Shown: one piece after another, positions 55,901 through 61,963 of the stretch
Layout: every line of letters starts with the position of its first letter
How positions within the stretch are numbered: the stretch's first letter is position 1
Assembly (NCBI GenBank): GCA_903813345.2
Contig: CAIIXF020000001.1
Coordinates: forward strand, 13,785,915-13,849,914
Length of the DNA: 64,000 nt
Direction: 5' to 3'
From: Owenia fusiformis
Lineage: Eukaryota > Annelida > Polychaeta > Sabellida > Oweniidae
Translations under genes and position numbers: made by a program
Notes under the pieces: model-generated
The model's database searches: none
What the model was told of the DNA's origin: nothing
Seen by the model: only the letters and a program-made list of their open reading frames with translations

Positions 55901-58900
55901 GTATATGGTCCATACAACAATCTGAAATCTCCATAATGCAAGAACAATCCAGCTAAATCCAAGAAATAGTAACTGAAAGGTTTAGAAAACACTTCCTCTC
56001 CAACTAGAATTAACCAAGCAGAATTTTAATTTAATGTACATGTACCTGCTTTAAGGTGTGCCATGTTTGTAGGTAGTTCATTATCAACAGCACTGAGGCC
56101 CACACAGTCAGGATAATAGGAGGCAAGGAAGGGGGTGGAGGGGGAGAACTTGAGGTATGGAGGCAGGATCAAACTAGTAATCCAGTTCTCATCTAACACT
56201 TCCTCAGCTCTCTAAAACAATCAATGCTTTATTCATTTACTAATATGACTTGACCTCTAACTGATAAAAACATTTTGATCCTATTGATTTTTTAAACGAA
56301 CCTTATTTATTTCTTGAAGTAAAATGGTTCTACTAACAAACATTTAAAGTTATATTCATGGATTCAACTTTATTGTCAAACTAAAGAGAGGCGGTCCTCA
56401 TAAACACAACAATGATAATGCCGACTATAATGATTGTACATTATAATGAAAAAATATATAATGTTAAACATTGATTGTATAATTAATGGAAATAAATATT
56501 TTACCTTGTCCATGGGTTTGGCACATTCTGTCTCTGAAGGGGATCCAGTTTCTTCTTCATCCTCTGACATCCCACACACAAACTTGCGTATAAATTCAGG
56601 TGTCAGCTGGAAATTAGCTGACATCTCTCGCCATTTCCTACACTCATTGCATTGAACCCAGTAAAATAGCACCTGGAATTACACATTTTAATTTAACTTT
56701 GAAGAGATCTCAAAATTGATGCAAATTAACTTTTTGGCTCCTGGGGTTGGGCTGGGAAAATTAGAACATGGTATATGCTACCAAAATTGCATACAGTAAT
56801 ATTTATTTCTAAAATAATCTGATGGTTGAACTAAGTCAAAAAAAGCATTCTAAAAATACAGGCAAATGATGGAAACAGCATCTTTTACATGGCATGTCAA
56901 CTGCAGGTAGGTAAAGAAAGCAACCACATAGCTTGGTCCACTGACAAATTGGCAAAATTCAAGAAATAATTTCTCAAAGGGGATTCCCCATACTTTGTAA
57001 AGAATTCTACTATGTTCACCGACACAAAAGCAAAATAAAACAATTATAGAAACACAATATACTTTTTACCTTTAAATCAATGATATATCAGGGATCATGG
57101 CAAACAATATAACAAAAAATATATTCAAATGTACTATAAACACAACTAACTAATCAAAACCAAGCCACAATTTCTTCACCTCATGTGTGTGTACATAGTA
57201 TAAATGCCACTTCTCAGAACTGAAACTCAAGCTGAAAGTGAAACTCAAGTAAATTCCATTAACAAAGAAAAGCTGACGTAAATATTTACATGATTCATAA
57301 ACATACTTTGATCGTTAGAATCAGGGATGTAATTTTGATTTGACAACAGAAAATTCAGAATAAAGAACTTCAGATCTACACAACAAGCATTATACTTTAC
57401 AGATTAAAAGTCAGCCTGAATTTATACCGCTGTGTGGATAACGGTGGTTTATAAAAATCAAGTTTATGATGGACAAGCATTGAAGCAAGTAGCTCCTTAA
57501 CTAGGATTATTCATTAAACATCAAAATGGGACAAAAACCTAGTAAAGCATCAGCACAACTTGCTTCAAGTTCACAAAGCAGAGGACGTAGGAGTTGCATG
57601 CAGTTTACAGACTGTGAGAACAAGACACTGAAACATAGAAGTCAGTACATCCACAGTACAGATATACCTCCCTACATAGACTGCAGGTAGGAGTTACGTA
57701 ATACGTACAGTGGGGTTGTCTAATTGGGAAATACCCTTTTCTTTCTTTTCATACCCCACCCTACTTAGTTTCAGAGGCACAACATCTTTAGTAGCTTTGC
57801 TTTTCATACTAAAAAGAGGTGTTCCTAGGGTTATTAAATTGGGTTACCCTTTCCTGTCTTTTCATACCACACCCTGCTTAGATATTTTAATTTCTGAGGT
57901 ACAACAGTCATGTCCTTATTATCTGATGGTTGAACTAAGTCAAAAGGGTTCTTACATGTCTTTAATTTTGCCTTAATTTTCATAATGTCATCTAAATACC
58001 TGACTAGCCAGCACAGCCAAGTTGAGTATTACTTAGTTTACACAAAGCTATCTCCTGAGAGATAGCTTGCAAAATTCTATATTCCCAGCCCATGTTAAAG
58101 GTCTTTTACAGAAATGTTAGAAATTGTGGGAACACTTACACTTCTTAAATCGATGTATAACATCATAAAGTATCGTTGTAATAATCGTAGAACGCTAACT
58201 GGAGTCGGGAGACAGTGTAATTGACGAAAATGAATTTGGAACTTGTTATTTTCCGTGGCGTCTGAACAGGAAGTCTTGCCAATGCGCATGCGTGTAATCG
58301 GAAGCGGAAATCTCATGACATGGAAGCGCAATGCACATTACTCAACTTCCTGAGAAGCCATCTTGAAAATTATCATCTCTTCAACATTTTTTCCACATTT
58401 TTCGTCAATTACACTGTTTCCCAAGTGAGCACAGTGACTTATGCTTTTCATACTAAAAAGATGTGTTTCTAAAAAGCTTGAGTTCACTAAGGCAGTAGAT
58501 AACTGCACGTCAGAACAATGAATCAGCAATAAAAATAGACAGTAGGCTATTATTCACAAAAACAAAACATTAGCATCTTGAAAGCCCATGCTTCTAGGCA
58601 TTAGTGTCAAGTCCTTTTGTTTGGTTGTTTGGTTAAAAGCAGCTCAATCAATATAAACCACATTGTTTAAAAAAGTACCCTTTCTTTTTTCACAACGATA
58701 TTCAGAATACAAAAACTATCCAACTTGTAATTTTTGTCCGATTTCTTCTGAAAGATTTAGGTTGCCAACAAAAAATAGTATGCCTTCATCGGCCTTCCAA
58801 TTTTAACATGTACCAGGTACACTTAGTACTGGAAGTTATTATATTCAACCATTCAGAGACAGCAATTAATGCCTTTATACATTTGTATTTTAGTGATCGT

Positions 58901-61900
58901 CCCCCATGCTGGTACTGGGAGACTTGTAAGAGACAGGATGGCTATGAACATATGGCCAAGTACCTCCATCCATGGGAACTAGCCGGTGAGTTGAAACGTT
59001 ACAATAATAGGCCTGATAGTACAACCCCCCTTATCATACCCATAATAGATTCTTATCTCATTATGTACAGGGGTCAATCACACAGTAATTGGTTCATGGG
59101 GGACACTGTTCAAGGATCCCCCTGAATTTTTTTTTTCTTTCCTGATAAAGCCAAAAATATATTTCTCAAGATTCTACCTTAAAACCAAAACATTTTTCTA
59201 ACAGTGTTCAGGTACAGAATATTTTACAGCTGATGAAGGTCATCTTGACTTCAGTTTGTACTAAATGATAAATTACCAACAACACACAAGAGTTATTTTA
59301 AGGTGAACATATGTTAGCGCACTGACTCTAACAGTCATATTACTTCACTGTTTTTGTCTGTCATGTAAATAAAATAAAACACTCCACCCTTTAAATAATA
59401 AATAGCACTTGTGATAATGGATTAATGGGTTTGATAATTATTAACTTTGAATTAAAATCACCCTATCATAACTTTCATTCAACTGTCTGATGTCAAATTC
59501 AAGAGCTTACACATGAGTATTTGGCAGCAATGCATTTTTAAAATTTTTATTCCTCTTCCAAACTATATGCTTTAAATAGTAATTTTCCTTATGTTCTACA
59601 TGAAGAATTTCTGTTCAGTTAATACACATTTTTACATAATAAGGGTCATTAAAACTTGTTTCTTTGTTAGATGTTAGACTGGGATATTGTAGTTTTTTTG
59701 ACCATTTAAACTTCAAGCATCAAATTAACACATTTTCCTCTTTAAGACACATTTTGATGGTCTGAAATAGCAAACGTGCTTAAACACCATTTCACATATT
59801 ATGACAATATGAAAGTTAGACTGTATATAGCATTTGGTATGTTAAATTGCTACATAAAATTTAGGTAAAATTGCAATTTGACTTGATTTGGTTTGACAAA
59901 AGATGGTGTATTTAATCAGACAGGGTGATATGGTTTCATCATGATTTATTTATGTTCACCTTCAATCTCATTTTTGATTCAGATGAAGTGCGGACAGTCC
60001 TGATTGGTAAAACAGGGGCGGGCAAAAGTCTCTCATGCAATACCCTACTGGGCAAAGAGAAGTTTCAGAGTGTCCTTGGTTTCCAGTCAGACACAAGTTC
60101 TTGTCAGTATGACTATGTCAACTATCAAGGGACGAAATATATGATCGTCGACACTCCAGGAATATTTGACACGAGAGTCAAAAAGGATCAGAATGCTATC
60201 GAACTGTTGAAGTGTCTGAGTATATGTGCCCCAGGGCCTCATGTTTTCCTCATCACTATAGCGATAGGACATGGACGGTATACAGTTGAAGATGAGACAA
60301 CGGTTGAGCTATGCCGTAAAGTATTAGGAGATGGTATGTTAAATCATGCAGTTGTGTTGTTCACTTGTGGTGATAAACTGATTGAAGAGAATATGACTGA
60401 GGAAGAGCTGATGAACAATTCCCCAGAAACACTGAAGAAACTGATCAAAGATTGTGGTGGACGTACATTTATTATAAACAATAAAACCAGCCGTGAACAC
60501 AGAACCAACCAAGCGAAAGACTTGATGATGAAAATCAGTACATGGGGCCTTGATAAAACTGCATATGAAGACAAACATGGACTTTTCAAGAAAATAGAAG
60601 GAATATTTATGAAAGAACAACTGGAAAATAACACTTCACGAGACGAAATTAAGCAATCTATAATAAGAAACCTGCGTAAGGCAAAGCCTATCATGAAAAC
60701 AATTATAACAGCTATTGGCCCAATGATGGGCGAGATACCACACCAATATGCACAAGGAATTTCCAAAGTAATGACAGTAGTTACACCAATGCTGATTATT
60801 CCATTGCTAGATCACTGGGTAGATGATGACATAAAAGAAACTCCTGATGGTTAGTGGAATAGCAAGAGTATACATGCCCTGAACTATTATGCAAGTATGG
60901 ACATAAAGGATGAATCAGGAAATATGCACATAATTGGCCCTTGCTTAAATGTATTCGAAATATTGATTATTTTATTGTGAAATAAAATACACCTTTTATG
61001 AATACTGATGCATAATTGACCTTCTGCTGTAAATCAAATAAAGATAAATTGTTTTCATAGTTCAATGTATTTTTTAATGTTTTAAATCATGATGTACAAC
61101 AATATATTAGTACAACATCAAAGTACTAGCATTTCAATGTTAAAAAAATGTTACAGCACTTGTGAAAGACTTAGATGACTTTTTGTTGTTGTTGGGCATT
61201 GAAATGGAGGGAATTGGTTTATGAAATGCTTCAACTGAAACAGAACTTTTTTTACTCCACTTTGATCAGCCACATTTAATTTAGCAAACAGATTCTATAT
61301 TTTTTTAACTTCAGTTAAATACCAAACACTTAGATTCTTTTGGTGTTGGTAAATCATACTTACAGCATGGAACATTTTTTTTGTCCAAATTAGTCAATAT
61401 AACAATAGTTATACTAATGGTGCACAGCATATTTGTATACAGGGTGTCCCGAAAAGTATGGGGCCACCCCTAGGTAGACATGTACCTGAGATGGCACGAG
61501 AGGACACATTGACTAGTGATTTGGTGTAAAATTAAACTTAATTTTGACCAAACACTAAATTTTTAAATGCCTGTAACTTTTTCCCATTTGAGAGTTGAAC
61601 CATGATACTTGGCAAATCAATGTAAGTTTGGATAAACTTTAAAATGATATATGACACATACTATTACAACACTGGTATATGTCTGCCTAGGGGGGGGGGG
61701 GCATACTTTCGGGACACCCTGTACATGAAAAGAAAACTTCGAAGACTGACAAAAGCTTAAGTAATGACCAATAATGAAGTTCTAAGTCAAAGAATGAAAC
61801 ACCACTGGCCAACAGCTATTACCCATCAATATACAATAATACACCTCTTTGAAATATTTTACATACCTGATCGATCATGAATGTTTTAATTGTAGGTTCT

Positions 61901-61963
61901 GTTTTTCCATTCTCTGACCACTCTTTCTTCCACTGTTCCAGCATGGGAAATCCTGCCTTCTGA
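48677..61963 (-). CDS. KDM1B: Lysine-specific histone demethylase 1B (LSD2/AOF1), 5'-incomplete, 15 exons
   Basis: This is a flavin-dependent histone H3K4 mono/di-methyl demethylase of the LSD2 type, a nuclear enzyme. Exons in transcript order: 61963-61867, 56672-56505, 56211-56046, 55686-55530, 55276-55213, 54915-54733, 54315-54106, 53855-53684, 53202-52943, 52610-52536, 52138-52022, 51694-51569, 51180-51049, 50544-50392, 49936-48677. All have GT-AG boundaries and phases join without a break to give 1,112 residues in the window. Order of domains: end of the N-terminal zinc region, CW zinc finger (about 35-85), SWIRM (about 150-278), FAD-binding Rossmann motif GAGASG (about 284), then the amine-oxidase core to about 720. 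The SWIRM-CW combination separates KDM1B from KDM1A. The extreme N-terminus, including the C4H2C2 finger, is not found before 64000. The C-terminal extension is unusual. Confidence 0.95.
50146..50232. repeat. Small hairpin MITE in a KDM1B intron
   Basis: Arms reading CGTCTGGCCCAGTTATCTAC and its imperfect complement flank a short GC-richer centre. It lies between the last two coding exons. Confidence 0.7.
51266..51450. mobile_element. TA-flanked MITE in a KDM1B intron
   Basis: It begins AGTAAAACATATATATCTG and ends TTAGACAGGTTTTACTA, with internal TGTGAACACCT motifs. Related to the 35971 and 48163 elements. It lies between the exons at 51180-51049 and 51694-51569. Confidence 0.6.
52022..52138 (-). 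CDS. KDM1B: KDM1B exon ending at the flavin-proximal lysine
   Basis: It encodes [19 protein letters not shown], then [11 protein letters not shown]. The final lysine aligns with the LSD-family lysine that contacts the flavin N5 through water and is needed for catalysis. It is retained, so the enzyme is predicted active. Confidence 0.9.
52192..52317 (+). repeat. GTCACCACC-family repeat in a KDM1B intron
   Basis: It opens AAATGTCACCACCTGCCATT and TTGTTACAG and ends near a degraded GTGGTTTCGACAT. Compared with the 54361 copy it has lost part of the right palindrome. Confidence 0.65.
54106..54315 (-). CDS. KDM1B: KDM1B exon: FAD-binding Rossmann motif
   Basis: It encodes [17 protein letters not shown], then [16 protein letters not shown], the GxGxxG dinucleotide-binding loop and the following acidic residue that binds FAD ribose. 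The end contains [14 protein letters not shown], the second flavin contact. It is 210 nt, phase 0 at both ends. Confidence 0.95.
54361..54512 (+). repeat. GTCACCACC-family repeat in a KDM1B intron
   Basis: It starts AAGGCGTTAACGTGCAAAATG, carries TATTTGTTACAGATG, and ends ATGTCACCACAAGTGGTGG with TGACAT. The right-hand palindrome is intact. A tandem AAACATTANCCACC motif fills the middle. Confidence 0.7.
54733..54915 (-). CDS. KDM1B: KDM1B exon: C-terminal half of the SWIRM domain
   Basis: It encodes [20 protein letters not shown], then [20 protein letters not shown] and TGIL, the SWIRM helical core. It is 183 nt, phase 0 at both ends. The preceding exons (55276-55213 and 55686-55530) supply the first part of the domain with [13 protein letters not shown]. 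Confidence 0.92.
56505..56672 (-). CDS. KDM1B: KDM1B exon: CW-type zinc finger
   Basis: It encodes [19 protein letters not shown], then [13 protein letters not shown] and an acidic linker with [10 protein letters not shown]. Tryptophans and CxxC are the CW signature; the third and fourth cysteines are in VCGM and ETEC. It is 168 nt, phase 0 at both ends. Confidence 0.92.
57526..57686 (+). CDS. PBZ-GIMAP exon 1: myristoylation-type start and first PBZ finger
   Basis: The ATG at 57526 sits in an AAAATGG context. The exon encodes a Ser/Gln-rich lead, then [10 protein letters not shown] and HRSQYIH, matching PBZ spacing and the conserved aromatic two residues before the final His; the usual Tyr-Gly after the first Cys is replaced. 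It ends phase 2 at a GTAGGA donor. Without the splice the frame would stop immediately (TAG at 57688), which supports the exon end. Confidence 0.72.
57526..60854 (+). CDS. PBZ zinc-finger / AIG1 (GIMAP-type) GTPase fusion protein
   Basis: A three-exon gene (57526-57686, 58894-58985, 59983-60854) encodes 374 residues; exon phases (2, then 1) join exactly. It starts MGQKPSK, a good N-myristoylation signal (Gly2, Ser6, Lys7). Residues 24-43 form a first PBZ-type finger with C-x5-C-x6-H-x5-H spacing. Residues 59-79 form a second, RPPCWY..TC...H...YLHP, with C-x5-C-x7-H-x5-H. PBZ fingers bind poly(ADP-ribose). Residues 86 onward are an AIG1 GTPase: G1 GKTGAGKS (93-100), G3 DTPG (141-144), the conserved GRYT box (182-185) and G4 TCGD (212-215). 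A hydrophobic stretch ([14 protein letters not shown]) lies near the C-terminus. AIG1 GTPases act on membranes in immune cells. The gene lies wholly in a KDM1B intron on the opposite strand. The GTPase is certain; the fusion rests on splice phase. Confidence 0.85.
57710..57960. repeat. Internal duplication in the nested gene's first intron
   Basis: Two similar segments containing CTTTTCATACC, CACCCT and AGGCACAACA/GAGGTACAACA lie side by side. A phrase CTGATGGTTGAACTAAGTCA at about 57922 also occurs at about 56820, so this intron holds duplicated local sequence. Confidence 0.55.
58207..58422. mobile_element. 216-bp inverted-repeat element carrying promoter-like motifs
   Basis: The ends GGGAGACAGTGTAATTGACG and complement (GGGAAACAGTG...) bracket a relatively GC-rich interior. 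That interior holds a perfect NRF1-type TGCGCATGCG (58283-58292), ETS-type cores (AGGAAGT, CGGAAG) and, on the minus strand, CAAGATGGC in a YY1/Kozak context. It lies in intron 1 of the nested gene and the large KDM1B intron. It could act as an alternative promoter. Confidence 0.6.
58894..58985 (+). CDS. PBZ-GIMAP exon 2: second PBZ finger
   Basis: A 92-nt exon between a TATTTTAG acceptor and a GTGAGT donor encodes [16 protein letters not shown] and [15 protein letters not shown]-x-x-C, the aromatic at C+2, H-x3-Y-x-H and the following Pro are PBZ landmarks; the expected Gly is Trp. Phase is 2 in and 1 out, completing Ser with exon 1 and Asp with exon 3. Confidence 0.78.
59983..60854 (+). CDS. 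PBZ-GIMAP exon 3: AIG1 GTPase domain
   Basis: A large exon after a TGATTCAG acceptor encodes the whole GTPase and C-terminal helical region, ending in a TAG at 60852-60854. Motifs are [36 protein letters not shown] and LFTCGDKL, then INNKTS as the G5-like segment. An in-frame ATG upstream at 59941 would give a GTPase-only product if transcription started inside the intron. Confidence 0.95.
60981..61042 (+). promoter_or_regulatory. Candidate polyadenylation signals of the nested gene
   Basis: AATAAA occurs at 60981-60986 and again at 61037-61042, about 130 and 185 bases after the stop codon. Either is a reasonable 3' end for the plus-strand gene. Confidence 0.5.
61043..61437. other. Intronic sequence, nothing recognised
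   Basis: AT-rich KDM1B intron sequence after the nested gene; no motif or repeat noted. Confidence 0.5.
61440..61721. mobile_element. TA-flanked MITE with CAGGGTGTCCCGAAA termini
   Basis: The terminal inverted repeats CAGGGTGTCCCGAAAAGTATG and complement enclose 282 bp with TA on both sides (61438-61439 and 61722-61723), a Tc1/mariner-type pattern. A poly-G run near the right end replaces the matching CCCCTAGG on the left. It lies in the KDM1B intron. Confidence 0.85.
61867..61963 (-). CDS. KDM1B: KDM1B exon: linker before the CW zinc finger
   Basis: It encodes [19 protein letters not shown], then [13 protein letters not shown], closely matching the segment that precedes the CW finger in vertebrate KDM1B. 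It is phase 2 in and phase 0 out, with a GTTTCAG acceptor and GTATGT donor. A second AG four bases downstream of the acceptor leaves a small ambiguity. A 5.2-kb intron follows that contains the nested gene. Confidence 0.88.

Follow-up and report, generated by a model that had tools for sequence, protein, structure and literature searches.

Does Owenia fusiformis encode an AIG1 GTPase that carries its own reader for poly(ADP-ribose) (PAR), a polymer that serves cells as an alarm? The question is raised by a plus-strand gene in a stretch of 64,000 nucleotides (nt) from this annelid (assembly GCA_903813345.2, contig CAIIXF020000001.1, positions 13,785,915 to 13,849,914), here called the window. 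A preliminary description had joined two PAR-binding-type (PBZ) zinc fingers to a GIMAP-type GTPase across three exons of this gene. We use "GIMAP-type" for an AIG1 GTPase close to the GIMAPs and apply no coiled-coil criterion, the feature beside AIG1 by which passages of PMC7053062 separate GIMAP from other AIG genes. The union of a PBZ finger with an AIG1 GTPase (PBZ-AIG1) in the window gene is, with near certainty, real.

A PBZ finger and an AIG1 GTPase in one gene

The three-exon model was reproduced to the nucleotide: exons of 161, 92 and 872 nt add up to 1125 nt, encoding 374 amino acids (aa) and a stop codon, both introns begin with GT and end with AG, and the intron phases are 2 and then 1. 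A profile check of the 374-residue product placed two Pfam domains above their cut-offs. AIG1 (PF04548; cut-off 27) scored 162.6 bits over residues 88-271, and zf-CCHH, the PBZ model (PF10283; cut-off 22.7 bits), scored 25.2 bits over residues 56-81, matching one finger. The same finger scored 30.1 bits in isolation and 28.2 bits at genome level (G000:C1:13844812-13844889).

Genome-wide profile searches covered 498 Mb and gave match counts that are lower bounds. PF10283 had at least 22 matches up to E = 10, at least 11 of them over the cut-off; PF04548 had at least 35, at least 24 of them strong (E below 1e-27). Five of the 11 over-cut-off PBZ matches sit 546 to 4395 nt upstream of an AIG1 match on the same strand, and the AIG1 matches downstream of them are the five best of the genome. 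Under random placement, 0.0013 PBZ matches would be expected to precede a strong AIG1 match by no more than 5 kb on the same strand, and the probability of at least five such linkages is about 1e-17. Chance co-location was ruled out by this comparison of 0.0013 expected with five observed. The DNA examined around the other 19 strong AIG1 matches, in upstream stretches of differing length and for C3:9043765 upstream DNA only, held no sense-strand PBZ pattern and one antisense match (in L022).

All five PBZ-AIG1 genes (Table 1) passed both Pfam cut-offs, and their splice sites are in phase in every model. The fusion proposed in the preliminary description is thus strongly supported by four paralogues, by common intron phases and by purifying selection on the finger exons. 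An isolated accidental fusion was ruled out by the five genes together with a sixth, on C10, that carries the finger pair on a Mab-21 enzyme (the C10 gene, described below).

It could be argued that the finger exons belong to a separate transcript and that the GTPase starts inside intron 2, as the window gene, L001, L002 and L003 each have an in-frame ATG in the intron that precedes the AIG1 exon. In L004, however, the open frame of the AIG1 exon runs from its preceding stop to the P-loop with no ATG on the way, and this GTPase therefore requires an upstream exon. Phases and splice sites agree in 5/5 genes, and the equivalent exon junction runs in frame into Mab-21 on C10. Two transcripts are very improbable, and a division of fingers and GTPase into separate genes was rejected on the missing start of the L004 GTPase.

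Selection was compared between exons by the ratio of nonsynonymous to synonymous differences per site (pN/pS); the ratios are rough because synonymous sites are near saturation in several pairs, with infinite synonymous divergence (dS) in 5/15 comparisons. The finger-2 exon gave 0.05 to 0.17 in all six pairs of the window gene, L001, L004 and the C10 gene (upper bootstrap bounds at most 0.39), and the AIG1 exon 0.28, 0.40 and 0.42 in its three pairs. Exon 1 was least constrained, at 0.29 to 0.61 over six pairs, with an interval exceeding 1 in two. Between the window gene and L004 the values were 0.05 (0.00-0.14) for exon 2, 0.28 (0.21-0.37) for the AIG1 exon and 0.52 (0.33-0.82) for exon 1: in this pair purifying selection acts more strongly on the finger-2 exon than on the GTPase exon. 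Neither intron 1 nor intron 2 gave a blastn match between the same two genes, and the finger exons therefore stand out through coding constraint and not through recent copying. The window copy is very unlikely to be a pseudogene in decay within an otherwise active family: it has K66 in place of an aromatic residue kept in L004 and the C10 gene, but its three exons are open, its splice sites are intact, pN/pS is well under 1 in exons 2 and 3, and AATAAA follows the stop.

An AIG1 tree was built from GIMAP7 and the strong genome matches except C3:9043765 (23 of 24), with the 11 weaker matches left out. The window gene, L004 and L001 formed a clade (99/98), and the placement of L002 and L003 lacked resolution. 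The PBZ label needs three changes on this tree, a count reached or undercut in 27/500 shuffles, and the labelled genes formed one group in 0% of 200 bootstrap trees. A single clear origin of PBZ-AIG1 was not supported in the tree, though there may have been one.

The fingers, the GTPase and the protein ends

The claim of two PBZ fingers held for finger 2 only. Finger 1 has the C-x5-C-x6-H-x5-H spacing ascribed to it, and its zinc ligands are invariant in 4/4 copies (window gene, L001, L004 and C10 gene). It fails the PBZ model: Pfam returned nothing for a 59-residue fragment containing finger 1 when matches up to E = 10 were allowed, a search in which HMMER filters remove most matches above E of about 0.1. 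PAR-contact consensus residues were also missing from all four copies, which have Q or K two residues after the first cysteine (C1+2) and N or D two residues after the second (C2+2). Finger 1 is probably structural or a binder of something else, as its ligands are invariant while these contact positions differ. It may still be a decayed PBZ, a view supported by the C10 gene, whose finger pair matches the APLF tandem over a single continuous alignment (E = 0.0027). When the profiles of the two fingers (four sequences each) were compared, the result was non-significant (probability 1.4%, E 0.038), and common descent of fingers 1 and 2 is thus not demonstrated.

Finger 2 was compared with the PBZ consensus [K/R]xxCx[F/Y]GxxCxbbxxxxHxxx[F/Y]xH, as given in a passage of PMC4030884. 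In the window gene it agrees at K/R, C, F/Y, C, the first basic residue, H, F/Y and H, and departs at G (W) and the second basic residue (Q). Six PBZ-type fingers were available for comparison: finger 2 of the window gene, L001, L004 and the C10 gene, and the single fingers of L002 and L003. All six keep K/R at -3, an aromatic residue at C1+2 and a basic residue at C2+2, and all six have W for the consensus G. Directly after the second cysteine, four have tyrosine or phenylalanine, the window gene K66 and L001 H. The window finger aligned to both fingers of human APLF (2kqb). We think it somewhat more likely than not that it binds PAR.

The fingers might instead bind a different ligand, for example single-stranded RNA or a partner protein, their PBZ likeness reflecting ancestry and fold only. 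The missing contact positions of finger 1 and the one aromatic residue that window finger 2 lacks are in keeping with this. Against it, a PBZ finger scores over the cut-off in 5/5 AIG1 genes and in the Mab-21 gene, and L002, L004 and the C10 gene retain tyrosine, tyrosine and arginine at the contact positions. We consider a non-PAR ligand unlikely.

By the usual rules for GTP-binding motifs (P-loop, DxxG and G4), the GTPase of the window protein has all three; its G4 reads TCGD, with the aspartate retained and the lysine absent. The closest solved structures were GIMAP7 (3zjc, E = 2.3e-35) and then GIMAP2. P-loop, DxPG and R183 are invariant across the five PBZ-AIG1 genes. R183 aligns with the arginine-finger position of GIMAP7, a residue with a role in dimer-stimulated GTP hydrolysis. 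The likeness to vertebrate GIMAPs (GIMAP7, GIMAP2 and GIMAP5) thus takes in the AIG1 G domain, the P-loop, DTPG and the arginine of the GRYT motif. Viral contigs scanned with the window GTPase gave eight pattern matches, none of them confirmed.

Vertebrate GIMAPs attach to membranes through C-terminal segments, and none is known to carry a zinc finger. The window gene, unlike them, has a PBZ finger, and 3/5 PBZ-AIG1 genes carry a putative myristoylation signature at the N-terminus: the proteins begin with MGQKPSK (window gene), MGNSSSK (L001) and MGGAQSR (L004). The shared MG, S at position 6 and basic residue at 7 are kept in 3/3 two-finger AIG1 genes while the residues that follow diverge, and they fit the N-myristoylation pattern (MG start, S/T at 6, basic at 7). 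The C-terminus of L002 is CNIM, which is CaaX-like. Membrane anchoring is fairly probable.

The same finger pair on a cGAS-like enzyme

A genome search with the finger sequences found both finger exons in four genes and at a further locus at C10:3.89 Mb. In the fourth gene, the C10 gene, the pair is joined through an equal phase-1 intron to a Mab-21 domain and its C-terminal partner (55.3 and 50.7 bits). Its best solved match was cGAS-like receptor 1 (8gjy, E 1.1e-22). GS, EFD and SID motifs, presumably catalytic in cGAS-like enzymes, lie at positions aligned with 8gjy. Among 32 Mab-21 matches in the genome, the C10 gene alone has an over-cut-off PBZ match no more than 5 kb away. What it shares with cGAS-like receptors and Mab-21 proteins (8gjy, MID51) is the catalytic module after the finger pair, where the window gene has its GTPase. 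AIG1 GTPases and cGAS-like enzymes are both known from innate immunity, and the finger pair thus appears as a cassette joined to two families with that connection. AIG1 and Mab-21 matches are also neighbours, about 50 kb apart or less, in two places on C4 (G000:C4:24.90-24.97 Mb and C4:31.66-31.74 Mb).

Six over-cut-off PBZ matches lie outside the AIG1 genes: the C10 gene, L005, L006, L007, L009 and L010. At L005:1934-2583 a PBZ match is followed about 0.3 kb downstream by a LIG3_BRCT frame on the same strand (67.8 bits); the two may form a DNA ligase III-like gene that includes a PBZ finger. L006 (C1:51.73 Mb, minus strand) and L007 (C1:52.81 Mb, plus strand) are near-identical PBZ exons 1.1 Mb apart; one has an F-box frame nearby, the other a BRCT frame. 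The further finger locus (G000, C10:3.884-3.891 Mb; L026:938-1586 and L028) has one exon of finger-1 type and, after it, a second exon that encodes two fingers of finger-2 type. Genome profile searches gave no AIG1 or Mab-21 match near it; a 1552-residue open frame upstream on the same strand may be part of the gene.

A role in the nuclear DNA-damage response, and not in immunity or at membranes, would agree with the company that PBZ fingers keep elsewhere. Passages of PMC4030884 and PMC9881148 report mammalian PBZ from three proteins only (APLF, CHFR and SNM1A) and wider use in, for example, Dictyostelium, where PMC4030884 has it in damage-response proteins; the ligase-like frame beside L005 points the same way. 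The MGxxxS[K/R] starts of 3/5 PBZ-AIG1 genes and the CaaX-like end of one point instead to membranes, and the finger pair also occurs on a cGAS-like enzyme. AIG1 proteins, moreover, are known mostly as membrane and immune GTPases, as parts of PMC7053062 also indicate. We judge a nuclear role improbable.

The whole PBZ-AIG1 gene of the window lies antisense inside an intron of a KDM1B/LSD2-like gene spanning about 56500-61963 on the minus strand. The flanking exons (about 61867-61963, and up to 56672), when joined, gave an unbroken alignment to residues 78-151 of the KDM1B chain in 4fwe, and the second of them carries a CW zinc finger (zf-CW, 37.4 bits). Two elements resembling miniature inverted-repeat transposable elements were seen at 58207-58422, in intron 1 (terminal inverted repeats of 24 nt, 96%), and at 61438-61723 (17 nt, 100%).

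Table 1. Features of the window gene and its surroundings (window positions), and related genes elsewhere in the genome
Feature	Position	Strand	Details
Exon 1: start codon, MGQKPSK start, finger 1	57526..57686	+	donor CTGCAG|gtagga; phase 2
MGxxxS[K/R] N-terminus, residues 1-7 (MGQKPSK)	57526..57546	+	motif common to L001 and L004
Finger 1, C-x5-C-x6-H-x5-H (C24, C30, H37, H43)	57595..57654	+	PBZ-like spacing; no Pfam match
Exon 2: finger 2	58894..58985	+	acceptor ttttag|TGATCG, donor TAGCCG|gtgagt; phase 1
Finger 2, PBZ type, C-x5-C-x7-H-x5-H (C59, C65, H73, H79)	58907..58969	+	Pfam zf-CCHH
Exon 3: AIG1/GIMAP-type GTPase, C-terminal tail, stop	59983..60854	+	acceptor attcag|ATGAAG
AIG1 domain, with R183 (GIMAP7 arginine-finger position) and TCGD	59991..60542	+	Pfam and alignment to GIMAP7
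AATAAA, possible poly(A) signals	60981-60986 and 61037-61042	+	127 and 183 nt past stop
ISRE/IRF-like GAAAGTGAAACT (tentative)	57234..57245	+	292 nt before ATG
Intron of KDM1B-like gene enclosing whole PBZ-AIG1 gene	56673..61866	-	flanking exons compared with KDM1B; boundaries by eye
Window gene	C1	+	finger 1, finger 2, AIG1 on three exons; 374 aa
L004	C3:27.42 Mb		finger 1, finger 2, AIG1 on three exons, phases as in window gene; 378 aa
L001	C3:8.02 Mb		finger 1, finger 2, AIG1 on three exons, phases as in window gene; 347 aa
L002 (L002:822-1678)	C4	-	one finger exon, phase-1 intron to AIG1; 335 aa
L003	C11		one finger exon, phase-1 intron to AIG1; 343 aa
C10 gene (L008 + L011), finger pair and Mab-21/cGAS-like nucleotidyltransferase	G000:C10:22054989-22059158 (C10:22.06 Mb)	-	434 aa

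PAR as a candidate signal for predicted membrane GTPases

The preliminary description had suggested that the protein could bring a membrane GTPase to poly(ADP-ribosyl)ated targets. Such recruitment is the best reading of the sequence, and it is strengthened by the N-myristoylation signature in 3/5 genes. We lean towards a lipid-anchored GIMAP-type GTPase that would be recruited to, and clustered on, PAR, with PAR binding, the anchor, activation as a dimer and the immune role all being predictions. N-myristoylation would hold the protein at the membrane. A PARP, after damage or infection, would make PAR, to which finger 2 would bind; a PAR chain would gather several molecules and crowd their GTPase domains. 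Once bound to GTP, these would pair, each stimulating the other by way of the conserved R183, and the assembled GTPase would be the effector, by analogy with vertebrate GIMAPs. PARP and PARG exons are present in the genome, so the PAR ligand should exist.

Several observations weigh against this mechanism, in addition to the synonymous saturation described above. In finger 2 of the window gene, K66 stands where APLF, L002, L004 and the C10 gene have tyrosine, W62 takes the place of the consensus G, and the phmmer match to APLF was weak (E = 0.1). The APLF tandem binds more than 1000-fold better than one finger, according to a passage of PMC9881148; with finger 1 devoid of contact residues, the fingers here may not reach the high avidity that PBZ tandems are reported to have. 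L002 and L003 have no MG start, L003 has no CaaX-like end either, and 19/24 strong AIG1 matches have no PBZ match.

An immune role for the window protein, argued from the analogy with GIMAPs, is tentative, and we hold it somewhat more doubtful than probable. One further clue came from upstream of the gene, in a site that resembles the consensus for interferon regulatory factors (IRF), or interferon-stimulated response element (ISRE). GAAANNGAAACT had two matches in the window against 0.36 expected. A second IRF-like site lies 97 nt upstream of L002 on the other strand, bringing the total to three sites in the 246,924 bases examined, and IRF exons are present in the genome. The site is only a hint of immune regulation, because the promoter region was inspected only after the site had been seen, 4/6 genes had none within the 1.2 to 2 kb upstream examined, and 4/100 shuffles gave two or more matches.

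Close comparisons were sought among known systems. The pair resembles the APLF tandem in having two C2H2-type fingers in a row, and differs from it in finger 1, which lacks contact residues, and in position, N-terminal to a GTPase and not in a repair factor. Biomphalaria glabrata offers an invertebrate AIG1 family with extra domains, among them death domain/CARD, kinase, ARM and Hint in the parts of PMC7053062 concerned; the main text of that paper, unlike the gene described here, nowhere has "zinc finger". Sections of a lancelet study describe varied AIG1 architectures and do not name PBZ. Among open-access papers, none was found with AIG1 and PBZ or AIG1 and zf-CCHH (no search paired GIMAP with PBZ in texts lacking the word AIG1), and none with cGLR (cGAS-like receptor) and PBZ. 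The literature negatives cover open-access papers, and the architecture may already stand in UniProt or InterPro as automatic annotation. On the literature search only, we class these genes as AIG1 GTPases whose conserved reader domain is new.

A bolder proposal, which we regard as doubtful, would make PAR a second messenger of innate immunity in this annelid. On this view a portable two-finger cassette, moved by exon shuffling through its phase-1 intron, would gate a cGAS-like enzyme that makes a nucleotide second messenger as well as lipid-anchored GIMAP-type GTPases, and PARPs active in an infection would switch on this set of immune effectors. A PAR-type reader fused to both a GTPase and a cGAS-like enzyme offers a direct, testable link from ADP-ribosylation to immune effectors, and the finger cassette is a natural module for building PAR-responsive switches. 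Together, the five PBZ-AIG1 genes and the finger pair on a cGAS-like enzyme suggest that PAR may be wired into innate immunity.

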